A stretch of 64,000 bases of DNA from Piezodorus guildinii. Its lineage: Eukaryota; Arthropoda; Insecta; Hemiptera; Pentatomidae. The stretch lies in assembly GCA_023052935.1 (NCBI GenBank), contig CM041292.1:81230169-81294168 (forward strand), written 5' to 3'. This document shows positions 835 to 57,800 of this stretch, one piece after another; position 1 is the stretch's first letter, and every line of letters begins with the position of its first letter. A program made the translations under genes and the position numbers. The notes under the pieces were generated by a model. It ran no database searches. It saw only the letters and a list, made by a program, of their open reading frames with translations, and was not told the DNA's origin.

Positions 835-3800
835 GTACTTATTAAATAAAACCTTAAGGTATGCTTTTAGTTCCTACTCCATTATTATCTGTTATCTATA
901 ACACATGCTCTTTATTTGGAAAATTTAAATTTTTACTAATCTGTTATTGGTTTATGATTATTTGTATATTTTATATTTCAGCTGGAAATACATATATTTA
1001 AAACAAAATTATAATTTAATCTATCTGAACTTTATGTGAATTGATTAAGATTGTTAACTAATAGTAATGTTGAACGAGCTATAATTATTTTCATTTACAG
1101 TAATTTTCTATATTAAAATATTTTACTTATCTTTGGCTATTTTATATCATTCGAAATGTGCAGTTTTCATTGACTTAATTAAAATTTGATAATAATGTTT
1201 TGTCTTATCTTATCTTCAATGGTTTTTAATTCAATTGTGGTTTTGTATTATCTCCTTTATTTTACATTTTTTATTTTATACATTTATTATTCATAACTAT
1301 AAAGAAGCTGCTAACTGTCATAGGAAAGACCAGCCACTGTTTTGCATTCTGGTGCTAGTCATTGCATGTGCCCTAAATATAAATCAGGCTCATGTTTCTT
1401 ATGGCTAGTGGTATATTGTTTATTAGAGCATGCCATAACTCTGGTTGATAGTTTCTTTATAAAATTCAGTTGACTCTATTTTTGTTAGGTATCCATAATA
1501 TTTATCCCCTTTCTAGAAAAAATGTTTTCATAATTAAATAAACATTTAAAGTTTGTATGTAATTTAAATTGGAACCAGAAATTACATTTGATATTCTTAC
1601 TAATTAAAAAAAAAAAAACTATATGAAATATATTAATGTCTACTTAATTTATAAAATTATTTTGAAATTACCTTTAACTATAACGATATAAATACTGAGT
1701 TAAATATTACAAAAAAATTACTTAATACTCTATAGAAATGTTACATGGGAATTATTTAGCTACTTAATATATATGTCACTATTTAACATATACATTATTT
1801 ATTAGCATAATTAGAAGTTTTATACCTTTCACTCAACGGCCTTATATATCATAAATTTTTATTATTTGCTGTTCAAGATTAACAAAAATAATAACATTTA
1901 ATGGTGTCAAAATGTGATCTTTAAAATCCGATTCTTACATAAACATATAAATTGAATAAATAAAATAAAATTAATTTACACACTTAAATATAAATTATGA
2001 AACATAAATTCAACAAATAAGCATCTTGCATTGATCTTGATTTTCACTGAAAAATTATTTATATATGTTTTTATATGTTATGATAAATAAATATATAAAT
2101 AAAAAGAAGAGATTGTTCCGAATAATACATTCATAATGAAAAATTATTCTTTAAGCTGTATCTTAAGTCTTATTATAGAAACTTTTAAGAATGAAATGCA
2201 CCAACAGTTAAAATAATCTAATCATCTTTATTATGAAACCATGTCATTACTTACATAGTTTATTAATCCATTTTCTATTAAGCATTTTATTGCATTCGAT
2301 ATCCAAAATAAAATAAAACAGTTTTTATGAGTATTGGACACTAACTAAACTTTATGAAGTCACTACCCAGTATGTTATTCCAGATCATTGATGCTATTTT
2401 TTCTGGTATTAATTAATTGGTAAATAGAATTAACCTTTCATTTACCTTTTTAAATATCTCTTAAACCATGATCTGATATTTAATACCGAATTAATTTTTG
2501 TATTTCTTTTTTTTTTGTTAAACTATTTTTTTAATAATTAAACTCTGCATATCTTAAAATCTTTAACTTTGAGGTGAGAGGCTGTAAATTTTTTTTTTTT
2601 TTTTATTTTATTTTTTTTTTATTTTATTTTTTTTATTATCATAGATCACATAAGTTTATTATCGAAAATAATAAAGTATAATAATAATATAATAAGTATA
2701 ATAATAAAATAATAGTCTAGTAACAGGTGTGGAAAATCTCTGGTTGGTTGCTATTCTAAATCAAAATTGCTGATCAGTAAAAGAAGATATTAAATAGTTT
2801 TAACTATTTATTGCCTGCCAATGTTTCAACCCCTGTTGTGGGTCATCATTAGGGCGCGAGATCTGTCGACAAGCACTGTTGTCAGATCCAGCCTGCAATT
2901 CGCAATAGAGTTCTTCCTGATGATGCCCCCCAATTGATTTCGAAACAGCAGGCAATAAATAGTTAAAACTATTTAATTGTTACTTCTACTGACCGCCAAC
3001 CTAACTAGTTCCTTCCTTTAATTCTCAACAGTCAACTATCAAAATTGCTGATGTTCTCTCTGTTCATTCGTTATTGTTATTGGGTTGTGTCACATGAAAT
3101 GTCCGTTTTCAAGGTAAAGGATTTTTATTAAAAATACGATATGAAAACAAGGTAATTTTATTCGAAGTATTTATCTTCTTTTTCTACACATTTTTCTCAA
3201 CGTGACACCAACTTTTTTATCTCCGAACTGAAAAACTCTGAGCTTTGAAGTGAAACAAAATCTGAAAATGCACTTTTCACTTGATCATCATTTCCAAAAA
3301 GATTTCCTTTGATGAAGTTGTCTAAATTCCTGAACAGGTGGTAATCTGTTGGAGACAAGTCGGGAGAATATGAGAGAAAGAACTTCGTAGCCCAGTTCTT
3401 TCAATTTTTGCACGGTATGTTTTGAAACATGGGGTGGGGTCTTGCTGCCGTTCAGTGATATCATGAGGTACCCATGTATCGAGCTTTTTTACTTTCCTAA
3501 TACACTTCAAATGTCTGGAAACGGTAGATCCACTTGCATTTAATTTTGCTGAGAGTCCTTTAACTGTTTGGTAGGGGTTTCCTTCTACTGTATGTTTGAG
3601 GACATCGTTGTCTATTACGGACGGAGGTCTTCCTCGGGGCAAGTTTTCCAAGTCGGTATCCCCAGCTGAAAACTTAGCAAACCAACGGCGAATGGTCCGT
3701 TCATTAACACTCCCTTCCCCAAACGCCTTGCAAATATTTCTAGTGGCCTCAGCTGCTGAATGGCCGAGTTTAAAGACGTACAAAAATATTACTCGAAAAT

Positions 3801-6800
3801 CGCGTGTTTCCATGTTCATATTTGGAGGTATACTAAAAAGTGGGTAATTGATTGGGAAGCTAATGTTTATAATACAAAGGTAGAGGATTAGTAACTGTTT
3901 ACTTTATATATGTAAACATTCGGAAGAAAACAACAGAGACCTGCAAAATCCTTTATGTATTTCAGAAACTATAAAACGGACATTTCATGTGAAACAACCC
4001 AATATATTGTATATGACATACTTCTTATTATTATCATATATATATTTTTTACTATTGCTCTTTCATCTTATAAGTTTAATAATTGTAAATACCGAGAAAA
4101 CTTTCTTTGATTATTAATAAAAATACTGGATGTGTAGTTTTTTATCTTTTATGTATTTCTAGTCTTTCTAGATCCCATCTCTAAATCATTTTCCAAAATT
4201 ATTTTTTATAAACTTTGATTTTTCAGGCAAAGCTAAGATCATGGAAAGCCCAAGCTCTGTGGAACAAGTTCGATAAAAGATTCAGTCATAAGTGCTACAA
4301 CAGAGGCAAAGCATGTAGTAATCTGAGGGTATGGACAATTAATAATTTATTGCTTTTGGAAATAAAAATCAGTGTTTATTCAAAGTTTAACTTCCTTATT
4401 TTTAACATTTTTTTTATGCATCAAATTGGCAATAAAATATAAAAATTTCGAATGTGTACATCAATTTTCTTAGCTAATACCCTTTAAAAAAGGAATTTCT
4501 GAAATATAATTGTTTTTATTTATTTTTTTAGGTTTTAGTTATTGGAGCAGGTCCTTGTGGCCTGAGGTCTGCCATCGAAGCTCAACTTCTGGGAGCAAAA
4601 GTAGTAGTTGTTGAGAAAAGGGACCGAATAACAAGAAACAATGTACTTCACTTATGGCCTTTTGTTATTCATGATCTACGAGCTCTTGGTGCCAAAAAGT
4701 TTTTTGGTAGATTTTGTGCTGGAGCCATCGACCATATCAGTAAGATTAAAGTTATATATTGATTATATAAAAAAAAATTCTTTTATAATACATATTGCTG
4801 TTATTTTATTTTTTACAGGTATTCGACAGTTACAATGTATTTTATTAAAAGTATCTTGTTTACTCGGCATTGAAATTCATGAAGGTGTTGGCTTTGAATC
4901 TCTTATCCCCCCTCATCAAGATCCTCAAACCAATGAAAGTAAGTTATGCAATTTAATTTATAAGAAGATATATTTTTAGACTTTATTGGTACTACTGCAT
5001 ATTGTTTTAATTTTTAGTCCAATGTATAGGTGATTCTGTCTATAAAAAGTAAAGTTTTTTTTTATTTAGCTGAAGTAAGCTATAGGAGTGTGTTCGCGGC
5101 TTAATTATCTCTTTGCAAATGGCTGCTGTCCTAGGAACATTATGGATCTCTATATGTACTGAACTGAACCCAAGACCCTTCAAGGATTTTTATTTATTTA
5201 TTACAAAACAAAAAAAATTGACATAAAATTTAATTTGCCATCTGCATTTCCTTTGCAATAAGCAAATTTGTGGACTGCTGAAGCAGGGGCTCATCACAGC
5301 AGAGTTCGTTAAGTGATCAGCATATCTCTTAGCCACCGCCTGCGTAGTCGTCGGGGTGGGCTGTAAGGATTCGTAGAGCATTTTAATGTTTCTGTAAGAT
5401 TGTTGGTGTTGTATGTTAGTCTTTGGTGAAAGTTATTGTATTGTTCTGTAGCAGTGGCTGAAATAGTCGTTATGTATAACGTCCTTTGTTACGTAGAATG
5501 GTGTGTCCACTATTTTGCGCAGCACTTTCGACTGAAAAGACTGTATTCTTTGGATACTTGATGGTTTAGCAGAGCCCCACAGTTCTATCCCGTATGTCCA
5601 GATTGGTTTTAGCAAAACTTTGTAAAGAGTTAGTTTGTTGGTTAATGATAATTTAGAGCGTCTGTCAAGTAATCTAGATAAAAGACCGTATCGTCTGTTA
5701 AGTTCTTTGCGTTTTTGTTGAATGTGGGTCCTCCAGGTCGGTCTTTTGTCCAAGTGAATATCTAAATATCGAATTTCGTCGGAAGTCGAAATAGGAATAT
5801 TATTAAAGTTAATAGGAGGAGAAGGTTTATGGTTCAGAGTGAACACTACATGAGCACTCTTGGACTCGTACATCTTTATTTTCCACCTAGAAGCCCAAGC
5901 AGAAATTTCATCAAGGTGGTTTTGGAGGGATATTGCCGCTTGTAAAGGATCCTTATCTGAACAAAGAACAGCTGTTTCATCAGCAAAAGAGTCCCATTGT
6001 GCTGGGGAAGATCTGGCATGTAAATGTTAAACAATATTGGTTCTAAAACACTGCCCTGAAGTACACCTGCCTTAATTTGCTGAATGTCTGAGAGTTCGGT
6101 ACCCACTTTCACAGAAAAATGTCTATCCGCAAGGTAGGAAAGGAATATTAAATAGAACGTAGGTGGAAGTAAAATTTTCAGTTTGCAAAGCAATCCTTCG
6201 TGCCAAACCTTGTCGAAAGCCTGACTAATGTCAAGGAAAACACCTGGACAATATTTTTTTGACTCTAGTGAATTTGAAATGAAATCAACTAAACGATGAG
6301 ATTGTTGTATAGTTGAATGATGTTTTTTAAAGCCGAACTGATGATAGGGATTTTTAGAGATAGTTTTTCAAACTCTATGAATGTTATTACTTAATTAGTG
6401 TTATATTGATATAATGGTTATGACAGAAATTACCTCTAATCATTGATTTTTTTTCTTCTAGAATACTAAACTGGATTCAATTGAAATACATGAATAATAT
6501 TTAATGAAATAGTTAACTAGTCATTGAAACTTCAAAAAATTAATAAATAAACATTAATATTTGAAATATTTTTATTTTTAGTAAAGATATGAAGAGTACT
6601 TATGTTGTATAAGTTTTTGATAAGAAATTATTTTTATCCTAAAATATTTGGCGTTATTGTATGTTAAAAAAATAAAATAAATATAAAAAATATACTATAA
6701 TTTAAGTGAAACCATTAAATTTGTTTTAATGAACATTAATAAACCATTTTTTGTGTTAAGTGGTTGGATGGCGTGCAGCAACTGACCCAGCTGATCATCC

Positions 6801-17300: not shown

Positions 17301-20300
17301 AAACTTCCCTATAGTGTTGTAAGATTGTTACAATGTCTATTTGCCCTAGCAGTTGACTATAGTTCATTGGAAATAGACACAACTGGACTGTTGCATTATT
17401 CCACTGTTTTATGAGTCCAGCTAGATCTAGACTTATGAAGCAGTCCATTGCAGGATTAAGATTGTTCGCAAAATAATTATTTACATTTTTAAAATTGTAT
17501 TTCTCCAGAAAAAAATTAAGGAATGTTCTCAAAATTAGTTAGTTAGTTGAAATATATTATAATGAAGCATATTGATGGAATATGTTTTGGATTTTAAATT
17601 AGATGATAATACATTTTGTTTATTAATTATTCTTGTGCTAGTTAAAATATTTTAAGCAAAACTAATAATACTCTTATCACTCTCAAATTTTTAGGCTTTT
17701 TGATCAGCTATTTCCTGCCTTTGAGCATTTAATTAAAGGGTAAAAAGATATATTTGAATCTGTTTAATCCTTATCTTTCCTTATTTTGTTAAAATATCAT
17801 ATACTCCTGATAGGTAGTTAAAATCTCTACTACCATGGTTGAATGGGTTGAAATTGTTGGTTCTTTAAATTTATGTGAAACAGGAGCATTAAATTTAATT
17901 ATAGTTTAGGGTAATTACCACAATTAAAATTATAATGTAATTGACCTGTTGTGTAGTGGCGAGCTTCCTATACTGAAGTTCTTGGGTTCAAAGCTCGCAG
18001 ATGACCCTAGGATTTTTTGAGGTTGAATGGGTTGAAATTGTTGGTTCTTTAAATTTATGTGAAACAGGAGCATTAAATTTAATTACAGTTTAGGGTAATT
18101 ACAACAATTAAAATTATAATGTAATTGACCTGTGGTGTAGTGGCGAGCTTCCTATACTGAAGTTCTTGGGTTCAAAGCTCGCAGATGACCCTAGGATTTT
18201 TTAATGAGAGTAAAAAATTCTTGGTTATGCTATGCTTCAGAGGGGGCTTAAAATGGTGGTCCCCAAGCCTGTGCGATTGCAGTTACTCCTTTCAGATCCC
18301 TAACCTAATAAAACTTGGATATGGAAAATTTATGGCTCCCACTTAAGCATCGTCTGATTAGCCACATTAGCATAAAAGTGATGTTGAATGAATAAGCAAA
18401 AAATAAAAATTGGTGCAATTGAGTAGTAAGTAATATGTCCAATACATAATCCATATTTAGTCATGAAAGCGACCATTACATTACTTTACACTGACTGTCG
18501 TTTCTCTGTATCAGTACTATACTTAAGGCCAGTTGCACCAGCCTCAGTTCACCCTAAGGTAAGCTTACCCCAGGTAAAACTACGGTAGATAGTTTACCGT
18601 CGATTTCAGCAGGGAGTTTGTTGGTATGGCGTTTACTTATACTACTATTTCACAGGAGATGAAAGGTAGGTCGGCCATTTTACTTCCTTAATTCAATTCT
18701 TAACCTTATCACTTCATACTTGGACTTCTAAGAAATGCATTCTTATTTAAAGTTTTTATAAAGATATGTTATTATTATTTGTTTCCTGAATGTGAATAAA
18801 TGTGTTTGGATTGTGGTTGGGGGTGCGGTCATAAAATAGAAACACACATTTAAAACAAGTGCTATTTTAGTTGTTTAATTTATTTAATTGTTTTAAATGT
18901 GTGTTTCTATTTTATGACCGCACCCCCAACCATCTTCCTCCTCTAATTCCTCAACGGTCTACAAAAACTCCATAATTATTTTGGTTTTTAGTCACTTGTA
19001 TTTCCTATGGAGTCCTAAGAATGAAATTAACAACATACCCCCTTTTTTATTGAAAATTATAACCCTAATTATATAATTAAAACATTTTGTACAAAATTTC
19101 GGAGATATTTGTCTCTAGTCTACATTTAAATGCATTAATAATAAAATTAATTGTTAATGAAAAATCAATCATTTGTGTTCAAAATTTTCAAAAACAGATA
19201 TGGAACCTACTAAAAATCATCCTCACATACAGAATGTAGAAAACTTATTTTTAACAGGAATATAGTGGGAATTTTTAACTGATTTAAAAAGTTATAGGCC
19301 TAGGAATCACTAAAGAACTATTAATAATGATAATAACTTAAATATCTTATATTTACAAAACCAAACATGGTTAAATTATTTAGAGAGAATCTATTTCAAT
19401 GGATTAAAATTAAATTTATAAACTGTAATTATAAAATGAAAATGTTTTTTAAAAATTTTATGAAAGTAAAATAAAAATTAAAATACCTTTAGTAAATAAT
19501 GACTACACATTAATTAATTAATGTAGTTTCCATTTCTTTGAAATAGTAGCAAATAAAACAATTACATAAAACAAAAGTGATATTATTTCAAACTATTCAT
19601 GGAAGTTACCACTTTACTGAAGGTTAAACGGTGAGCCTTGCCCAGTGAAGTTTACCGTGGATTCAGCATCCCTACCCTAGATATTGCAACGGGCAATGGC
19701 TGACTTCAACGGAGGTTACCCTTACCACACTTTGACCTGGGCTGGTGCAACTGGCCCTTAGAGCATACAGACTGCCTCTTTGCTCTCCATTCATGAGGGA
19801 AGCCTCTCTTCCCAGTTTTAATATATCCAATATTAATTGGAAACCAGAAGCAGGTCACTGTTTTAGAATCCCTTTTTATGTCTAGTCGTCTGCAAAGTTT
19901 AATAGTGAACCACATTTTTTTGAAAAATCCAAAAAAAATTTTAAATATTTGTTTCTTGCAATCATACAAAAAGTAAAAAGGGTACTTTTAAACAAATAGA
20001 CAACAATCATAGCTGAATGTTTTTTAAGTATTATGCCTCATAAGTTCAACTACCACGTTGAATGGATTGAAATTGGTTGATTCTTTAAAACTTTTTTTTT
20101 TCTTGATACTAAGAGATTCATTCTCGTTCCTGATATTTAAAATTAAGATTTAATCCTTGTACATCAAAATTTGATTCTATGTATCAACTACGTTTATACT
20201 TAGAGTTTACTGATATGCATTTATTAGTTTTTACTTCATTAAAAATAAATTTGTATTATAAAATTTTGTTAGTTATATGTTATTGAGGTATTGAAAGTTT

Positions 20301-26300: not shown

Positions 26301-29300
26301 GAAATTCTTAAGTGTCAATTAAATACATGATTAGTCCATTTTTAAAAATAATACTGTTTATGAACATTTTGGTCTTTGATGATTCAGTTTCGTTTTGCTT
26401 TTCATTATTCTTTAAATTTCCTCCATTCAGAAAAATTAATTATTTAGTGTAGTATGTAATCAATACATTTTTCATGTGGATGATAAATAATGACCAATTT
26501 TTATTTTTCAATTATTATAGATTTATGTTTAACTGTACCATAATTAATATCATAAAATTTATTATAGGTGTTTTAAATAAATCGTATCCATATTTTTCTG
26601 TGCCAAATAGTGTATTGTTTCTTTTTTTTTTCCAATGTTTTGGCCAAGGCCATTTTCCTTATAACATATTTTTTTTTTTTTTTTTATAAATTAAAAGATA
26701 ATGATCAACATTCATTCATTGTTATAAAATATTTACATACCATTAATCTGTCCGATTCATATATCTATAAATATATTTATATAGTCATAAAAACACCTTA
26801 GGCTGTACAAGCCTTTGAGCTACTGTTACAATTCTAGATTAAAGTAGTGTTTCTCTTTCAATTGTAATAACAAATAGAAACAAAGCATTATTTATCACTC
26901 ATTATCTTTTTTTTAAACTTATTTAGATTTTCAAAAACAAATCCAATAACAATTAAAAGCAACACTGAAAAACATTGCACCATAATTTAAATAACAATTC
27001 CTTAAATCATTAATAGTCACAGCTAAAATATTTAAAAATCATAATATATTAATATTTAATATACCAATTACACATCAAATCAAAATTCAAACAATATTTC
27101 AGTTTAAAAACTCAACCTTAAAACATTTGACTTAAAAATTCATCTAACTGTATTAAATTATAGAATTAATTTCTCAAATTATAGAATTATATTAAATCTG
27201 TTTAAAATGTCGGTACCTGTTTTAAAATTATACTTTAATTAATGTTTTGCGAAATATAAATTATTTTCTAAAAAAAACAAAATTTCCTTTTAATAAAATA
27301 TTGCATTGTTTGTGAATAATCTTTGTGTTTTCAAAGTCAAATTAATATTGATTTATTCTATCACTTATAAATGTGTCAAGTCTGCCCATGTTTGCAATGA
27401 GAACTTCAGAATTGTCGAATCAGATCTGTTGTTATAAGAATTAAGCCATTAGTGTGTTAGGTAGATACATTTTTCCAAACGATAGTTATGTGTACCATCT
27501 CATTTAGATGGATGTGATAAACATGAGTAAGATCCATTAGATGTCACGGTGGGCTGATTCCTTTCATGAAAGTCAAATTGAAGATTGAATCCTTTATCTG
27601 TTCTCCTAATGAGAGAAACATTGTTTCTTTAGACTGGCAAGCCAGCAGTAGTTGGAGGCTCTGGAGGTAGTGAGATGTGCCATTTCTGCAACAAGAGGGT
27701 CTATTTGATGGAGAGGTTGAGTGCTGAGGGGCGATTCTTTCACAGGGGCTGCTTCAGGTGTCAGTACTGTTCTACCTCTCTCCGGCTTGGTATGAAATGT
27801 TATTTATCATATATCTTTAATAATAATATAATATCAGATTTATTAATTAATTATCAGAAAAGCATAAAGTAATCATTATATATATATTGTATGCATAAAT
27901 TGATCAGTAGATAAGTATTTTATTGTCAATTAAAGTTACATAAGATGTAATGGGTGTTTCAAGCCAGATGTGCTTTTTTACACTCTAGATGTAAGCAATT
28001 TTTAGAATACAAAGTTATAATTTAACAAATAAGAAAAATAATAGAGGGAAAATTGACAAAAAAAAAAAAAAAAACTCTAAATAGACAGACATAAACAAAA
28101 AGATATAAACAAATAATTAAATATAAAAATCATATTGGGGATGGATAGTTGACTGTAGAAACTATTATAGGTGGAAATAATCAGGCGACAGTCTTTTTTT
28201 AAATATTTTAATTTTGCCGAGGTTTCGGCTCAAGCTAGTGAGCCATCATCAGGGCTACAAACATCAGAACAAAAGAGATACATATTAATGTGATAATGAT
28301 TTTTTTTTTAATGTAGTGACTATGATAACATTTAAAAAAAACAGAAAATATACCAACATACTTAAATTTTATCAATACAAATAATGATAATATGACGATG
28401 ATAAGCATAAAAACAAAACTTTAGACTTTAATATAGAAGTAAAAAATTATATATAAACGTACCATTACTGAGCCATGTCCAAGCATAAACTGAGGAAAAC
28501 AGAAAACATAGATGGTATGGAGGGAGTGGAGGGTTAAAAAAGACTGACTCCTGATTATTTCCACTTATAAAATATAAAAATCATTAACAAAATAAAATAA
28601 AAAGTAAAAAAATAAATCATTACTACTATAGAACAAGGTGTTTTAGCCTCTTATGCTTATAAATTTTATATTTTAAATCAGCTTTGAAATAATTTACATT
28701 GTGCCTAATATGGTCATGCTCACTGTTTTCACAAGCTTTGAAAAAATCTGTAGTTAACTTGTAAATGAAAGTTGACATGCTAGGCACATTCAAACAGTAA
28801 TGCATGAGATCTCCATTTCGGATAGCCACCAACTAGTCTCAAGCATTTATTCTGCAATATTTGCAATTGTTTATAATTTGTTTTTCAAGTGTTTGACCAT
28901 ACAGGACAAGCATGATATATAATAGATCTGATATAAAGATAATAAATTAACTTTTTGTTAATTATATTAAGTTTTGAGTATTTACAAAGTAATAAAAATA
29001 ACATTAGCATGACCCCAGTAGCTTTATGAATCTGCATGTTAATGTGGTTTGTAAAATTTAACTTTAAATGTATTGATTGATCATGGTATAGACGAAAACA
29101 AAGACAGATAGATGTGGTTAATATATTATCAATGTAAATAAATCGCACCCGTAAATTTTACTTATTACCAGTAAAATAAATCTTATTTCTTATTTATTCT
29201 TCTATTAAAAAAAATAAAATGAATAAATAAAAAAAATGGTGTCACAACAAATGACTTTCTTATTCATGACTTTCTTATTTCAACAAATGACTCACTTATC

Positions 29301-32300
29301 TCTGCTGTTAAAATAAATTTAAGAAGTTTTAAGGTTGCTGTTTTTCAGAAAATCGTTAAAGGGTGCAAAATGCATGGTGTAAAGTAGCACTTTCGGTCTA
29401 CTGATTTCAGTGAAAAAGTTGCTGTACCATCTTAGGCCTATAATTGTCTTAAATATGAAATTTTAGTATTGCAGGCATTTTCGGTTTCGTGCTATACTTA
29501 CCACACACACACACAGATATTTTTGGAACATTCAATAAAGCACCCACTACCTTCCATTCATCATCCAATTACTTTATTTCCCAAGTCTTTTAACACCTTT
29601 TTTTTCCATCTTAGTCGACGTTTCGGGGTTGTTTCCCCATTTTCAAGACTGAAACTTATTCCTTGCTACAACATTTTTCATTCTTCATTACATCTTATAG
29701 CACACTGCTACTTGTGCTATAAGATGTAATGAAGAATGAAAAATGTTGTAGCAAGGAATAAGTTTCAGTCTTGAAAATGGGGAAACAACCCCGAAACGTC
29801 GACTAAGATGGAAAAAAAAGGTGTTAAAAGACTTGGGAAATAAAGTAATTGGATGATGAATGGAAGGTAGTGGGTGCTTTATTGAATGTTCCAATTAAGA
29901 AAACTTCCACAAAAATTAAAAAAGAAAAGAAACAGATATTTTTGTATGACTTTGTTATTTGGACTAAGGGGAGCCTAAAATTTCTGTATGTGTATTTCTG
30001 TTAAAATCTTTATTATTTTTTTTGGTCAATGTAAAGTTTAAAAAATAGCAATTTCTTGTTGTTTCAAGTTGTACAACTTGAATTACTTATTTGCACCAGA
30101 CCTCACTAATTTCTAAAACCAAAATCCTTATGTCTTTAATAGCATATTTTAAATTGGTCCTTATCTCAGAGGGCTATTGGTCTTAAAATATGATAAGCCA
30201 CAACTCTTGCTTGTATTCTTAAATCTACGAACTAGCAAAAGAGCTCACAGACTTTAAAAGCTGTCCTTGACTATACTGGAAAGTTATTGATAGTGCATTC
30301 TTTGAATTATACTGTCCGGAATTGTGATTACATTATGTATTGTATGTATAAGATTACCAAGTATACCCTACATCAAAACTTAATTCTTAGATAACATCCT
30401 TGAATTATATGAATACATTACCAAATTTTATTTTAAAAACTTGTTCTTTAAAATCAATTAGCTGAGTGGGATGGAAAAAAAGGAGTGTCTCATTGACAGT
30501 GTCTTGCATGTTATCGTGACAGCGATGTTCCCAGATTATCAAGATCCTTCTGTTTTTTTTTTTTTTTGTTTTTTTTAATGGAAAGTTATGTTTTTTTACT
30601 CAAATTTTCAATAAGACAGGATGTTAAACACTGAAAAAAACAAATTCAAGCTTACAGACAAATTTTTAATACCAACGATTAAATGTTATTTCCATCAAAT
30701 TTTAGAAACTTACCAGGTTTTCTATCCTATAACTGGAAATTCTTTCTTCAAAAATTTATTTATTTTTTTGAACATTCTGTAGAACAAATATAGCTATATT
30801 TAGTTAATTAAACAAAATTAATCATTATTATGATAAATTTATTTTTATTTATCAGCTCAACAGGCGCATGTAGCTGCCCTCGGCCCTCAACTGCTTTTTC
30901 CCAGTCATCCCAGTGCCTGTCGGCGTGATATTCCTGTCACCTTCAACCACCAAATCCTTCCGCCTTCCCTTTGATCTGACTCCAGACAAGGTCTGGTTCC
31001 ATCTCGGGTTACCTGATATATTGTTTTGGCCCCTCACCCATCTTCCATCACAATTAGGTTACCATAGTTATTCCATGCATTTGCACAAAATGGGAGGAAC
31101 AAGAAAAGATCTCCAAACCCATCAAAACAGGCATGAGAAATTTCGTGTATTTGATAGATGAAGACGTAGAGATGCAAAGCCAATTTGGGCTAACAAAGAA
31201 TGCTAGTTGTTAAAAAGGTTTTCTCAGAAGTTAGCTGTTAAGTCTTCATAGACAAATATATTTCTATAAATCCATCAACCTATTCTAACATATGCATGTG
31301 TGTGCTCATTGCATTCCATGAAAAAGCTCGCCTTCAAAATCAATTGGTTTGGAAGGAAAAAGTTGAGACGTATTATGGATTCATCAATAGAAGAGACAGT
31401 ATTCTCTCTAAGGAGAATCTAGAAGACTATTTATGTGTATAAACCAATCTATAAAACTATCTACAAATCTATAAACCACATACTCTCGATAGACTATAGC
31501 CAAAATTTGTGTTGAAACCAAAACAATACAGCTTTTTTATTATTTGAAATTATATCTGTAATGGTGCAATGCAATAAGTAAATATACATTTTCAGTTTAA
31601 CATATGATAATGCCTTAAGTACTATCCATTTGTCAATCAGTTTGAGATTGAATTAATAAAAATTAAATAGGAATAATTTTTAAGTCGATTATGAACTTAA
31701 TTATGTACACTTATAAAATAATTGATCAAAACTTTTTTTAAAGTATTATAGTTGAGTGAGTTTATTCTAATCTATCATGTCATGTCTCAGTTATCCAGAA
31801 AGCTATTTTGATTTATTTTTAAGCTATGTTTATAGTCTATTCAGTTTTCATAAAATATTAGAAAAAAAAAAAGTGTTGTATTTTTATTCTATTTTTGTTT
31901 GTTTAGTAGATTTCTAGCTTCATTTTGGACAATTTATTTTCAGGAAATTATGCTTTTGACCGCGAAGGAAAATACGGCTCCAAATTTTATTGTGTCCAAC
32001 ATTTTGGCTTGCAAGGTTCAATAGGAAGGCGACTTAAGGATGATGCAAAAACTGATATACTCAAAACACCTGTTAAAGCAGAAAAATCGCTGGAACCAGA
32101 ATTGATACCTGTTGAGGTATAAATGAAATTTAAAACATTTTCTTGAGTTTCTGCAAACAATCTAATAAAATGCGTTTTGTTTTTTAGCCTACTTGTGTAT
32201 ATATTTTGACTAATTTAATTGTTTTTTTAAATTATGATATAAATTTAATTCATTTTATTTAAGGTGATTGGGTATTGTTTGTTTTTAATCTTTATTTTAA

Positions 32301-51877: not shown

Positions 51878-54800
51878 TGTTTCATTCATTACTGTGTAAA
51901 ATCATGCTGAATTTTATAATTTACTGTGAAAGGTTCAAGATGCTCTTTATCATTATATAAACCCAACAAAGAAAAATAACTTAGTTATTTTGTTTAGGTA
52001 AATTTGAATGTTTTTAAATCAATTCTTTTATATTAGCCATTATATGGTACCATTTAGATTTATATCTTAAATTATTTCCAACTATCTCAATTTTTAACTT
52101 ACCACCTCATCATTTTCCTGTTTCAAAAGTTCACTAGCTTCTTGAGGTGGTATTTCTCTTTGAAAACTCTATCAAAACTAAACATAATTATATCAACAAA
52201 TCAAATATTTCAAAGAAAAGAAGGATTCATTATATTATCAGTTTCACTTTAATGTTTTATCTAAGCAATTGAACCTCATATTACATTTAATACTGTTTAT
52301 AGTTAACCATAAAATCTTATAAATGAAGATATGAGTTCTGCAACTTAAAAAATACAGAGTGCTACTAATAGATAGTTACTCTATTTTATGCAATTTTATC
52401 CTAGTGCGTAGTTACTTTTTGTTTTAGTTAGTACATAAGCAAATTTAAGTATTTAATTATTTTTTTAAAAATCTTAAGTGTGAACTTATTTTATCGGTCT
52501 TATTATCTCATTTGTTTAATTAAAATGTTTCCTATTCAATGTTAAAAAGTTATGGAATATAATAAGTTTTTTTCAGAAAATGTCAATAAAATAATGTGGT
52601 GTATAAACAGAAAAATGACTCGTTTTTCTGATGAATATTTGTATTATTATTTCTTTTATATAAAATAAATTATTACCCAAAGTATAGTCCATTGTTATTT
52701 ACTGTCATTAGCCATCTGCTGGTCAGTTGCTCGATCCCACTATTATACCTTTCTTTTTGATGGCTGTCAAAGAACTCTTAGACCGCAATTTCAACTTCCA
52801 ATTTGTTTTCCTTAAAGAAAATGGACCACATTTCGAAACAAGTAGTGACCAATGGCCATGGTCTGGACTAAATAGTGGATGAGACAGGAGTTCAAACTCA
52901 TGAAGTTCTTTAAACTTTTCTTTGGTTCGAAGAGAAGTGTGAAGATAAGCATTATGTTATTTAAATAAAACTCCTTTTCAGTTCTTCAATCTTTCTAATT
53001 GTTTACAAGAGAAATTAGAGGACACTGTCATGTTTCTCCTTTGAAACAAGTAACTAAACTAAGGCTTTTTTTGAAGAAGTCAAATGGGATTAAACAAGCT
53101 TCAAGAATGCTCTAGTGGATAGAGCACTGGTCTACTGTTCTCCGCATCCTTGTTTCGAATCCTGGCTGTGACAGAATATTTTATTCTGTTTTTTTATTCA
53201 TTAGGCGATCCTGGAGTATAGTGACCCTCCTGGGCCACACCCAGCCTTTATAAATTGGGTACTTATAAATTAGAAAAACAAAACTTAGTGGCTGAGCATA
53301 ATCTCTGCCGAATCACCTCATTGCATAGCCTTTGGCCTAGAAACATTATGAATCTATATATATACTGAGCCCAAAACCCTTCATGGGTTGTAGAGGTACA
53401 TTCTGTTTATTTATTTTTTTTTTTATTTATTTAATTTTTTTTTTTTTTATGCACCCTACTAAAAATTAATTCTTACTACCTCTAGCTCCCTAGCTGTATT
53501 CCTCTTTTTAGAGTCAGATCAAAATACTCCTTATCATTTTTTTAATTTTATTTAAATGGTTGAATATAATATTCAACTATAAACAATTAATCTGGCAGAA
53601 ACTCTATTAAATAGAAGGTATTATTGGGTTATTTAATATGCTACCTCATTTTTTCATTGTGCTGGTAAAGTTTTATTGGAGTCGTAGATTTGATTATCGG
53701 TTTTCTCCTGTAGGCTTCGTATGGCACAAGAGGTTCAGAGGGAGCTTGAAGAGTTGGAAGTAAAACAAAAGGAACTGGAGGCCAAGGGGGTTGCTGTTGA
53801 AAAAGCTCTTAGGGGGAAGAAACAGGTATTTTATACTGTGGATATAATTAATGTGTTTAAATCGCTTTATGTTATTGTCTAAATTCAAATGTTTCTTGGT
53901 GATGTTTAGGTATCAGCGGAAGTGAAAACGAGCTTCTTGGTGAATGGCTTAGGCTGATGCGGGAGAGGAGTGAGGCACGGAGTAAAGAAAAACAGCTTGT
54001 AATAAGGGGCCAAGAAATAGAGCTGGAGCACAGGCATGCCAGGCTCCAAGCCCAGCTTTCTGAACTTATGGCTGCTTCTCCTGGTTAGTATTTTTTTTTT
54101 AAATAATAAAAGAGATTAGGAAAGTGATTGTATAAATTAATTGCCCAAATCTAGAGTTCATGTCGTCTATTTATGTGAGTTGGTTTAACTGATTTTATTG
54201 ATTCAGAAGAAGAATTAAATTGCACCTTAAAAACTCACAAATGTTAATATAATGATTAAACTATTAACTTGTAACATTCCATTTGTAACCTTCTCAGTTG
54301 AATGGTAACTAAATATATTTGTACGCAAACAATTTACATCATATACACTGCCGGACAAAATTAAAGGATCACTTCAATATTTTGAAATTACTGAACTGTA
54401 TAGGATATTTTTGAAAATATTCTTTTTTCTTTGGAAGTCACTCTTTATTATAAGGGTAATAAAAAATTCTTTTCTAGAAATTTTTAATAGGAAAACAAAT
54501 AAAAAAATAAAACTGTCCTACAGTCTCAAAATGAAAAAGTAAATCTTTGAAATTAAATGAAACAACAAAACTGAATAAAAAGGAAGAATTTGAGGAAAAC
54601 GGTCAATAATTGGTATTCCCACCTCTAGCTCTGATAATTGCTTCCATTCTTCTGCCCATTCCAGCGACCATGGCTCTTACATGTTGTTCTGGGATGTTGT
54701 TCCACTCTTCCACTAACATTTCCCTTAAATCTGCCAAATTGTATGGGTCTCGGGCACGGACACGTCTTCCAAGCATGTCCCATTCATGTTCTATTGGGTT

Positions 54801-57800
54801 CATATCTGGACTTCTGGGTGGCCAAACCATTACATCAATTTCTTCTTGTCTGAGGAAATTTTGCACTGATCGAGCAACGTGAGGTTGGGCATTATCGTAC
54901 ATAAAAATAAAGTTCTCTGCGATATTTCTGGCGAAAGGTATTACATGTGGCTCAAGTACCTCCCTAATGTACCTGTCAGCAGTTATAGAGCCATGGTTCA
55001 CAAGAACTAACTCTGTACAGGAGTTTAAATTTATGCTCCCCCACACCATCACTGACCCACCACCAAACGCAACCCTTGGAGAAAAAGTGTATGGAGCATA
55101 CCTCTCTCTCCCCGCCTTCTCCATACCTTTTTCCGTCCATCTGGAGATTGGAGACAGAATCTTGACTCATCGCTGAATAATACGAGGCTCCAATCTTCCT
55201 GAGTGTAGTTTAGGTGCTCCCGAGCAAACCTCAAGCGCTCAACCCGGTGTTTCCTGGAGAGAAGAGGTCCAGTAGCTCAATCCATAATCGTTGAGTCGTC
55301 TTTTCACAGTTCGCTCTGAAATTTGCACATTCCTGAACCTCTGGAGGAGACCACGCAGACTGTTACCAGTTGATCAGCGATCCCGAAGAGCATGCAGTTG
55401 CAAAAATCTCTCGTCACAGTGGGAAGTTGACCTCGGACGGCCTTGTCCGACTCTTCTTGTATGCCCTCCAGTTTGACGGTGCCTTTTAAGCACCCTGGAC
55501 AATACGGATTGTGACCACTGGAGCCATTGCGCAATATGCCTTTGAGAAAACCCTTCTTCACTCAAAGCAACAGCACGAATTGATTCCTCTTTGGTTAATG
55601 CTCTTCTGTTGGCCATCACAACGTTCTTACTAAACTCACAAGTAAAAACTAAAGTCTCTTGAATGTTAGAAAATCTTCAATAAGATGAATCTTTGCTAAC
55701 AACTAACCATTTACTGATAGGAAGAAAGAAAAGAAGAGGATTAACTGACCCTTTTCTCCATAAAGGGGTGGGAATATAAACAGGTAGAGGATTAACTTGA
55801 TATGATACAACACAAAGTTCAGTCTGGGACAAAGGAATTCCTATTTTTATCTCTTATGTAATAATAATATAAATATTTGTAAGTGGTCCTTTAATTTTGT
55901 CCGGCAGTGCATATTAAGGAAACATTCCATTTACTGACTTAGTGATTAATGAATAGAAAAATTTTGAATAACGATTTAATAAAAAATGATGCATGAGTGA
56001 CTTAAAAATGACTCCTACTTCTTGAATCTTTGCATAAAAATAAATGTAATTAAAAATTTGGTCACTATTTTAATTTATATGATATATACTGTTATACCTT
56101 CACTGAAAAGAAAAGGATCACATATTTGTCATACTTATTTTTATGATTTTTTTAGGTGAATCTAGACTTTAAAATAATTGACTGTGTGGAAAAATTCAGG
56201 CCATTTACCAGAAGTCCCTGAAAAAAAAAACATCAGATAGACAGAGTGCACAAACCACATTTTATTTAAGGGGAAACCTGTGGTGTAGTGGCTTGCTTTA
56301 CAGCCTTCCATGCCCTAGGTCATGGGTTCAAACCTCGCAAGTGGCAAAGGATTTTTTAATGGGATTAAAAAATCCTTAGTTTTACCGTTCTTTGGAGGGT
56401 GGTGGTCCCGAGCCTGTGTGATGCTTAGTACTCGTTATCCTTACCTACTTAGGTACTAATTAGTACCTATCCTGATTAAACCTGAATAGGCAAAATTTAG
56501 GGCTGTCACTGTAGCATTAAGTGATGTTAGATGAATAAAAAAACATTTGATTTATTATCTCTGGGTCTGATGAAGATTAAAAAACTACGTGAATATTTTA
56601 ATTTCAAGCTTATTATATTTTTTTACTCGGCAATAGGGATATATATCGGTACCAAACTTGGTTTTTTACTTTACCTTTGATCTAGAGAAGTTAAATAAAA
56701 TATGGATGTGCATGCAATGTTCCCAAGGGTCCCCTGGGAAGTGTTGGCCTCTAATTTTTTTTCCAAGTCAGAAATTTCAATACCTAGTTTCACCTAAAAA
56801 GATTGGTGAGGCATATGTGGGTTTCTCTCCTTATTAAAACGATTATACTGTTGTATCCCATGTGTTTTATATAATTAGCTAAATTGTGACTGCAGAAAAT
56901 CGAACATGTCTTTGAAACATTGATTAGTAAGCGTCGGTGGGGACACTATTTTATTTTGTTATTTATTTTATTAAGTAATGATCTTCATTAAAAAGTATAT
57001 TTTAATATTTTAAATTATCAATTATAGAGGTAGATAGATATACCAGGGCTGATATATTTCTTCCAAACACTTTGTTTATTATTTTACTCTCAAATTAACG
57101 TTTCGGGATCTCACTCCCACGATCAGAACTCTACTAGTAAAAATCAACATTTCCAATTTAAAAAAAAACAAAAAACTAGGTGATTATTTAAAAAAAATAT
57201 TATAAGCTAGGTGTCCATTTTAACAAAATCTAAATTGTAAAAATGGTTGTTAATAATATAGATTTTGTTAAAATGGACACCTAGCTTATAATTTTTTTTT
57301 TAAAATAAATTTGATAATTCACTTCACTTGAGTTTTTTTTGTGAAAATTGGAATTGTTGATTTTTACTTGTAGAGTCCTGATGATGGGAGTGAGATCCCG
57401 AAACGTTGATATGATGGACAAATAATAATTGAAGTGTTTAGAAGAAATATATCAGCCCTATTATCTACATCTAACATTATGCTAGTTCTTCCGGTGATAG
57501 GAGTATAATAATATAATTATCAATTATATGTTCAATCTTTGGAATATTTTAATTTTTGGTTTTTGTTGTTATTATTATTTATTTTCTTTTTTTCAGAGGG
57601 AACAAAAACAAATGAAGAAGTAGCTCTGGAAGGTCGCATATTACGTGAAATGCTTGAAATAGTCGAAAGGAGAAACTCTCTACAAGCACAACTAGAGGCT
57701 GAAAAAGAAAGGTGCCAACCTTCCAATCCAATCACATACATCATCCTAGCAATTGCTGTCTATTTCACTGTTCATTTCCTTCTCACTCTTTATCAAATGA

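Follow-up and report, generated by a model that had tools for sequence, protein, structure and literature searches.

The minimal type I hammerhead ribozymes of Penelope-like elements (PLEs) comprise a CUGANGA core, a stem II, the sequence GAAAC, a short stem I and almost no stem III. In the available part of PMC7761336, some of these ribozymes cleave as dimers, and retrozymes are presented as direct repeats from which circular RNAs arise. Published PLEs carry inverted pseudo-long terminal repeats (pLTRs) that lie mostly head-to-head, with an optional 31-bp tail on one inverted pLTR, target-site duplications (TSDs) and AT-rich targets (PMC3846280, PMC11167929, available sections), and in Pen2a_Av of the rotifer Adineta vaga the full pLTRs reportedly exceed the inverted one by 37 bp (PMC3846280, same sections). 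For the Anolis element PAc, the accessible text of PMC11167929 places a hammerhead near the start of the open reading frame (ORF), reports that a C3G/G8C double change partly restored cleavage and that the ribozyme is not required for insertion in vitro, and describes in vitro cleavage and extension of both target strands with two start sites of reverse transcription that bracket the tail. Here we describe four short foldback elements, E1 to E4, in a window of 64,000 nt of the Piezodorus guildinii genome (assembly GCA_023052935.1, contig CM041292.1, positions 81,230,169 to 81,294,168, forward strand), together with their genomic copies and the resident PLEs.

We consider it probable that one RNA serves as template for both strands of a staggered break, each of which primes reverse transcription at its own start site, and that the resulting cDNA ends become joined. 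Specifically, E1 to E4 would be short non-coding insertions made by PLE machinery, namely a reverse transcriptase (RT) with a C-terminal GIY-YIG endonuclease. After a staggered endonuclease cut of 11–17 nt, one and the same RNA would be copied from the 3' ends of both target strands, starting for one strand at a long site and for the other ~37 nt upstream on the RNA. The two cDNAs would proceed toward the RNA 5' end and be linked head-to-head by end-joining, with a short overlap or filler between them; the product would be a palindrome that is flanked by a target duplication and bears a tail on just one side. The hammerhead motif would be inherited from the PLE, and its palindromic arrangement would be a by-product. 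The PLE identity of E3, the end classes, the TSDs, the concordance of the arms and the variety of the junctions are direct observations; we infer the order of the steps, the use of a single RNA molecule and the joining pathway.

The PLE link is most direct for E3 (29526..29931, plus strand), a short head-to-head element whose two 182-nt arms are 100% identical and enclose an 8-nt loop. It is flanked by an exact 13-nt repeat (ACAGATATTTTTG, 29513..29525 and 29932..29944), and its unpaired long tail (29895..29931, plus strand) lies between the PLE 3' end classes at ~q182 and ~q219 on the scale of the 219-nt right arm of E3. A genome search for the GIY-YIG domain, in which the best 150 of 2216 candidates were scored, yielded 103 places with open frames up to 961 aa, and a YIDD stretch is present in the PLE ORFs. 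The ORF of locus L121 matches PF01541 (GIY-YIG) with an E value of 2.4e-7. The L122 ORF has no Pfam match at E<=0.1, and RVT_1 was found in neither of the two ORFs; GIY-YIG of L122 nevertheless scored 32.9 bits in the genome search, and among 91 homologues of its ORF, precomputed annotation lists RVT_1 in 76, PF26215 in 81 and GIY-YIG in 4. Judged through homology, these ORFs thus appear to encode an RT together with a C-terminal GIY-YIG endonuclease.

The arms of E3 match 21 of the 30 PLE loci fetched from the same genome, 16 of them at 92–98% in every matched piece and five others (L114, L118, L137, L140, L141) mostly at 77–96%, and E3 shares both its long and its short end with the matching loci. 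In comparison with L122, a member of the closest locus group (PLE-A), both arms lack the same ~111-nt stretch. E3 is therefore a short non-autonomous relative of a resident PLE, and the Penelope-type origin proposed in the preliminary description is supported directly for this element by these sequence matches. For E1, E2 and E4, PLE membership rests on motif and architecture: the matches to PLE loci are short, namely 83% over 47 nt (L128) and 92% over 25 nt (L123) for E4, 80% over 59 nt (L130:12-69) and 79% over 38 nt (L137) for E2, and 80% over 82 nt (L117) for E1.

Genome-wide copy searches covered E1, E3 and E4, and the best 40 of 501, 1461 and 1056 candidates were scored, respectively. 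For E3, this yielded 40 copies with 97–100% identity; the element is a member of a young non-autonomous family of ~240–270 nt, derived from the PLE 3' region and consisting of pLTR, hammerhead-like motif and tail. The 40 scored candidates of E4 gave 108 matches, and E1 gave 40 main matches (E1 included), 38 of which end at the base equivalent to 3037. The likeness between E2 and E1 is at most a weak one at the 3' end (E=0.047). The four elements had been described as one family; they fall into at least three sequence families, represented by E3, E4 and E1.

The two ends of a palindrome differ in a regular manner. On the E3 right-arm scale, the 3' ends of the fetched PLE copies fall at 217–219 or at 178–186, with one at 155, and E3 itself has a short end at the left and a long end at the right. 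A one-sided overhang of 32–46 nt that has no partner in the other arm is found in all four elements of the window, at the right in E1, E3 and E4 and at the left in E2, and E2 is read on the minus strand because of this position; the preliminary description does not mention the overhang. Among the 103 GIY-YIG places, 20 pairs are neighbours within 8 kb, of which 13 are in -+ order (head-to-head), none in +- order (tail-to-tail), and four ++ plus three -- (direct). The ends were examined in 11 of the 13 head-to-head PLE pairs, the two left out both being PLE-B. Eight of the 11 combine a long with a short end (one short end being at q155), and seven of these eight have exact repeats of 12–17 nt while the eighth has, by eye, an 11-nt repeat with a mismatch, all counted without a mismatched-pairing control. 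The remaining three are long+long and have no repeats; we read one flank of each, which continues into shared sequence, as the start of the next tandem unit, and one of the three has a short outer end accompanied by a 12-nt repeat. Overall, head-to-head or tandem pLTRs, a one-ended tail and TSDs were all found across the PLEs and short elements examined.

The same pattern is seen in the short families. In the E3 family, every solid partner of a long arm (25 of 25) is short; this sample was chosen for a long right arm, and short+short dimers could not appear in it. The 25 solid dimers leave out L167 (partner 84%, at the stretch edge) and L194 (partner q1-51 only), and the set of 26 dimers used for TSDs and polymorphisms includes L167. 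An exact repeat of at least 11 nt flanks 24 of these 26 dimers, compared with 1 of 650 mismatched pairings, and the duplications are 11–17 nt long, in line with the expectation that further genomic copies with target duplications exist. In the E4 family, other copies end at 486–488 or at ~446–454 on the E4 scale. A second arm is present in 22 of its 40 loci (E4 included), of which 19 are long+short, one is long+long and two are unclassified, and no tail-to-tail pair within 1 kb was found in the 40 loci.

Several further arrangements were observed in these loci. The centre of L145 with L121 forms a PLE-B dimer at C1:83.78-83.79 Mb with 839-nt inner arms that are 100% identical, and the 5' and 3' pLTRs, the former lying in the 528-nt spacer, are identical over 315 nt; this dimer is apparently very young. 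At G000:C7:2038882-2048283, a nested --++ PLE cluster has outer and inner GIY-YIG pairs that share a symmetry centre within 1 nt, which looks like a head-to-head dimer of tandem units with a 17-nt repeat at the ends. In two cases an inverted repeat continues into the flanks, for ~50 nt past the element ends in L082:419-1313 and for 313 nt in L144:1-313 with L122:2357-2669; such a picture would result if the element had inserted at the centre of an older palindrome or if its flank had been copied.

At the centres of the palindromes, 21 of the 25 joins hold 1–49 nt unmatched to the PLE reference and the other four overlap by 1–8 nt. The inner ends range from -45 to +3 in right arms and from -49 to +109 in left arms, nine of the 25 left arms stopping inside the element (+4 to +109). 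These junctions bear on an alternative in which a single strand, antisense transcript or cDNA, serves as its own primer after folding back, and target-primed synthesis joins just one end to the target. This is the published interpretation, as far as the available text of PMC3846280 goes, for an antisense transcript of Penelope in Adineta vaga, and it accounts for the shared template of the two arms and for the symmetry of several junctions. A self-copied arm should nevertheless reach the same outer end as its template, yet the outer ends mostly differ by the ~37-nt tail, and both unequal ends abut the duplication in the 24 E3-family dimers with exact repeats. The left arms that stop inside the element and the frequent filler also count against it, and we consider self-priming unlikely.

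The arms of a dimer share their sequence variants. At a subfamily site split 9:9 in the E3 family, the two arms agree in 18 of 18 dimers (~4e-6 under random pairing), as they do at a linked site three columns away (18/18), and at three indel columns agreement is 24/25, 23/25 and 21/25. The G and T subfamily classes have mean arm divergences of 0.0146 and 0.0129; this similarity indicates that they were active at similar times. Additionally, the inner ends of the two arms correlate within an element (r=0.75, permutation P ~6e-4); this covers 16 of the 25 dimers, those with a left arm extending to -4 or further, L167, L168, L194 and L200 being excluded. Since the arms are concordant and the junctions differ, we conclude that each insertion builds its palindrome afresh on one source RNA. 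Two-ended target priming on two different RNA molecules, brought together in one dimeric ribonucleoprotein, has in its favour that the PLE protein is a predicted dimer that extends both strands in vitro (PMC11167929, available sections) and that some arms disagree at polymorphic sites. The full concordance at both linked sites and the correlated inner ends are not what it leads one to expect, and we rate it slightly less likely still than self-priming. In E4 itself, the arms show 35 differences in 206 compared positions, of which 18 are rare letters of the left arm and 3 of the right, with both letters common at six sites; the E4 arms do not clearly derive from two templates.

Several observations weigh against two-ended priming on one RNA, in addition to the uncontrolled repeat counts of the PLE dimers. 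Two transcripts of a single source locus would give the same picture as one RNA molecule. Arms disagree at the three indel columns in 1, 2 and 4 of 25 dimers, and at three further sites in 3/26, 3/20 and 5/10; at these further sites the minor letter is never in both arms, and the 5/10 site lies at the short-end junction. The position of the short end varies more (q173-193, once q155) than that of the long end (q217-219). In 13 of the 40 E3-family copies no second arm was detected in the fetched sequence, mostly ~360 nt upstream, and two arms may not be obligatory in this family; one of the 13, L168, yielded a 23-nt inverted piece. Both ends are long in the E4-family dimer L082. A common junction position was seen in a single case, that of L194 and L198 (-22/-27, with two filler letters that differ), L194 standing outside the 25 solid dimers. 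In the E4 family, repeats of at least 9 nt flank 7 of 22 dimers against 37 of 462 control pairings, and repeats of at least 10 nt flank 4 of 22 against 15 of 462, so the TSD signal is weak in this older family; an earlier TSD finder for it had boundaries that were too loose and was superseded. Finally, in the part of PMC11167929 available, the start sites of the Anolis PLE in vitro are apparently alike on top and bottom strand, and the rule of one long and one short end therefore needs an additional coordination step.

All four elements carry a hammerhead-like core, as had been stated. In E4, the motif in the right arm (57374..57414, plus strand) reads CTGATGA/T/GGGA..TCCC/GAAAC and lies within the best-conserved stretch of the 40-copy family alignment (E4 included). 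The motif had been noted facing in both arms of E4, and it was indeed found on both sides, the core of the left arm (57090..57130, minus strand) being degraded to CTGATCG. E3 carries the motif with the core TTGAAAA in both its left (29610..29650, minus strand) and right arm (29767..29807, plus strand). E1 has it in the left arm with the core CTAATGA (2815..2856, minus strand) and retains a remnant CTGATGA .. GAAAC with a broken stem II in the right arm (2917..2946, plus strand). E2 has it with CTGATGA and the stem II GGCTC/GAGCC (28212..28256, minus strand). A single match to the strict form (CTGATGATGG..CCGAAACGT) is present in the window, and 100 shuffles gave none. The loose form was seen 8 times, no more often than chance would give (6.1 expected, up to 13 across 30 simulations); counts of the motif are thus weak proof by themselves, and the loose pattern was not retained as evidence. 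Viral and prokaryote collections, scanned with exact patterns, gave 28 and 37 stretches, which were set aside because neither is an insect collection.

An alignment of six rows, comprising the motifs of E4 (right arm), E2, E1 (left arm), E3 (right arm) and two PLE loci, fits the core, stem I, stem II and a two-base stem III, with 96.2% of cells paired. Stem II was partly used in choosing the rows, and stem I was not. Double changes occur in 6 of 9 pairs (0 of 500 shuffles); stems I and II show full pairing with co-variation, while stem III is supported by 83.3% of cells with no double change. An extra base between core and stem II is U in five of the six rows. A model built from these rows (R1) finds the motif in the left arms of E3 and E4 (E=1.1e-6 for the latter), misses the right-arm remnant of E1, and detects the motif in the 3' and 5' pLTRs of PLE-B at a rough E of 0.0026; PLE-B is absent from the rows and offers a further stem I variant, GCAC/GTGC. 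These data support a hammerhead-like fold of the motif.

The core itself varies. CUGANGA with GAAA is present in E2, the E4 right arm, L128, L130 and L127; the core is one base off in the E1 left arm (CUAAUGA) and PLE-B L121 (CAGAAGA), and two bases off in E3 (UUGAAAA). The TTGAAAA core is kept in 37 of 40 E3-family copies, 27 of which are letter-identical over 36 nt. The changes C3U and G8A in the E3/PLE-A core would preserve the 3-8 pair, and the young E3 family offers a natural test of whether this pair alone matters. The covariance-model check, whose failure had been named as a refutation, came out negative: Rfam gave no hammerhead at E<=10 or at the gathering threshold in the window, in the E4 region alone or in six PLE/E4 loci, a scan of low power that had no PLE-hammerhead positive control and also misses the motif in the PLE-ORF loci L122, L128 and L130. 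We take the Rfam hits that were obtained to be hairpin artefacts. At the palindrome centre of E3, positions 29669-29748 score above the gathering threshold as mir-1 on both strands, which we take as a foldback artefact; other copies could be mis-annotated likewise.

The preliminary description had proposed that the head-to-head arms supply a hammerhead dimer within one RNA; in a related version, the palindrome is the propagating unit, transcribed as a foldback RNA in which the opposed hammerheads act as a dimer. The presence of the motif in both arms of E4 and E3 and the common junction position of L194 and L198 speak for this view. However, the inverted copy is antisense, and the predicted folds of E4 and E3 bury the core inside a long duplex. 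Furthermore, no two of the 25 solid E3-family dimers have the same centre, their inner arm ends and filler differing, copies without a detected second arm exist, and the core of the young family is TTGAAAA in place of CTGANGA. Neither the intramolecular dimer nor the propagating palindrome held up, and we regard the latter as highly improbable. The motif copies are in direct orientation, as a dimer requires, in the PLE-B pLTRs and opposed in E3 and E4, and model R1 finds no direct tandem in E1–E4. A coincidence of left-arm ends with the hammerhead cleavage site (L082, L102, L111) was considered and dropped, as left-arm ends in the E3 family vary widely. Foldback or miniature inverted-repeat transposable element (MITE)-type DNA transposons with terminal inverted repeats would account for inverted repeats and short direct duplications, but E3 matches PLE 3' ends, the ends are unequal with a single tail, the duplications vary from 11 to 17 nt and copies without a detected second arm occur; neither excision footprints nor a transposase-bearing copy with the same ends was seen in the loci viewed, no dedicated search having been made, and this explanation is scarcely credible.

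The remaining elements of the window share the architecture of E3. E4 (57027..57514, plus strand) is a head-to-head PLE-type element of 488 nt between exact 14-nt repeats (AATTATCAATTATA, 57013..57026 and 57515..57528). Its arms occupy positions 5–447 of 488 at 79% identity (82% over an outer stretch of 148 nt), and the left arm stops at the short site, leaving an unpaired long tail (57474..57514, plus strand). E1 (2775..3037, plus strand, 263 nt) is flanked by exact 15-nt duplications (2760..2774 and 3038..3052), and its arms occupy positions 1–217 of 263 at 69%, the outer 52 nt at 85%. E2 (28134..28569, minus strand) has an unpaired tail at 28134-28165 and exact 15-nt duplications (28119..28133 and 28570..28584), its good pairing being limited to the outer 34–35 nt (91%). 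The direct repeats of 13–15 nt and the inverted-repeat structure described for all four elements were therefore confirmed. In keeping with the reported lack of ORFs, no PLE-type ORF was seen inside E1–E4, and the sole stop-to-stop frame of at least 70 aa that overlaps much of an element encodes 97 aa (29436-29729, E3).

The window is part of a 222-Mb contig in a genome of 1.2 Gb. Its host gene has CH, LIM and bMERB domains (Pfam), and the large exon shows 53% identity to MICAL3, as a protein of Lygus hesperus is named, while the best match, at 71%, is unnamed. We take it to be a MICAL gene of a true bug. E2, E3 and E4 each sit between exon-like ORFs of this MICAL-type gene, in agreement with the intronic location reported for them; E1 lies upstream of the first recognised coding stretch. 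Traces of other mobile elements in the same gene region are an RT fragment (RVT_1, 5433-6367, minus strand), a mariner-type transposase fragment (HTH_48, 3322-3903, minus strand) and a Tc1-like transposase fragment (DDE_3 and HTH domains, 54603-55676, minus strand). A strong hairpin at 18813-18933, with a below-threshold Rfam score as MIR172/mir-9457, is possibly one more foldback insertion, without a hammerhead motif.

Two-ended priming on one RNA may extend beyond the short elements. With somewhat less than even confidence, we propose that PLE retrotransposition, at least in this insect, is usually a symmetrical two-ended target-primed synthesis on one RNA, in which each start site is used once. 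If so, a single reaction, different from that of long interspersed nuclear elements (LINEs) and able to proceed without the hammerhead, would leave palindromes, one-sided tails and target duplications as its three signatures. It would also explain foldback insertions that could otherwise be mistaken for MITEs or, at the E3 centre in Rfam, for a mir-1 microRNA. Short near-identical insertions with readable ends, junctions and subfamily markers make the choices between one and two RNAs, and between two primers and self-priming, testable. Inverted pLTRs, the head-to-head preference, the one-sided tail and hammerheads are already in print for PLEs. A literature search, incomplete for key PLE papers, did not find the rule of one long and one short end with counts, the arm concordance or two-ended PLE priming, and we give the mechanism, not the kind of element, as the novel part.

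Together, the elements can be placed among known systems as follows. Like metazoan retrozymes, as described in the available text of PMC7761336, they are short, non-coding, hammerhead-bearing and dependent on a foreign RT; unlike retrozymes, they are inverted dimers or single units, and the 3' end of E3 matches a resident PLE. The motif resembles the minimal type I PLE hammerheads in its stem II, GAAAC, short stem I and near-absent stem III and, in some of the copies, in the CUGANGA core, and differs from them in the UUGAAAA core of E3/PLE-A and in not being recognised by Rfam 15. With the canonical endonuclease-containing PLEs Pen2a_Av and PAc, the elements have in common the pLTR, the head-to-head preference, AT-rich targets, the one-sided tail and TSDs, the latter being 11–17 nt here versus 8–10 nt in the rotifer (PMC3846280, available sections). 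In comparison with these canonical PLEs, E1–E4 lack an ORF and measure only 263–488 nt, and a shared template with private junctions is documented here over many copies.

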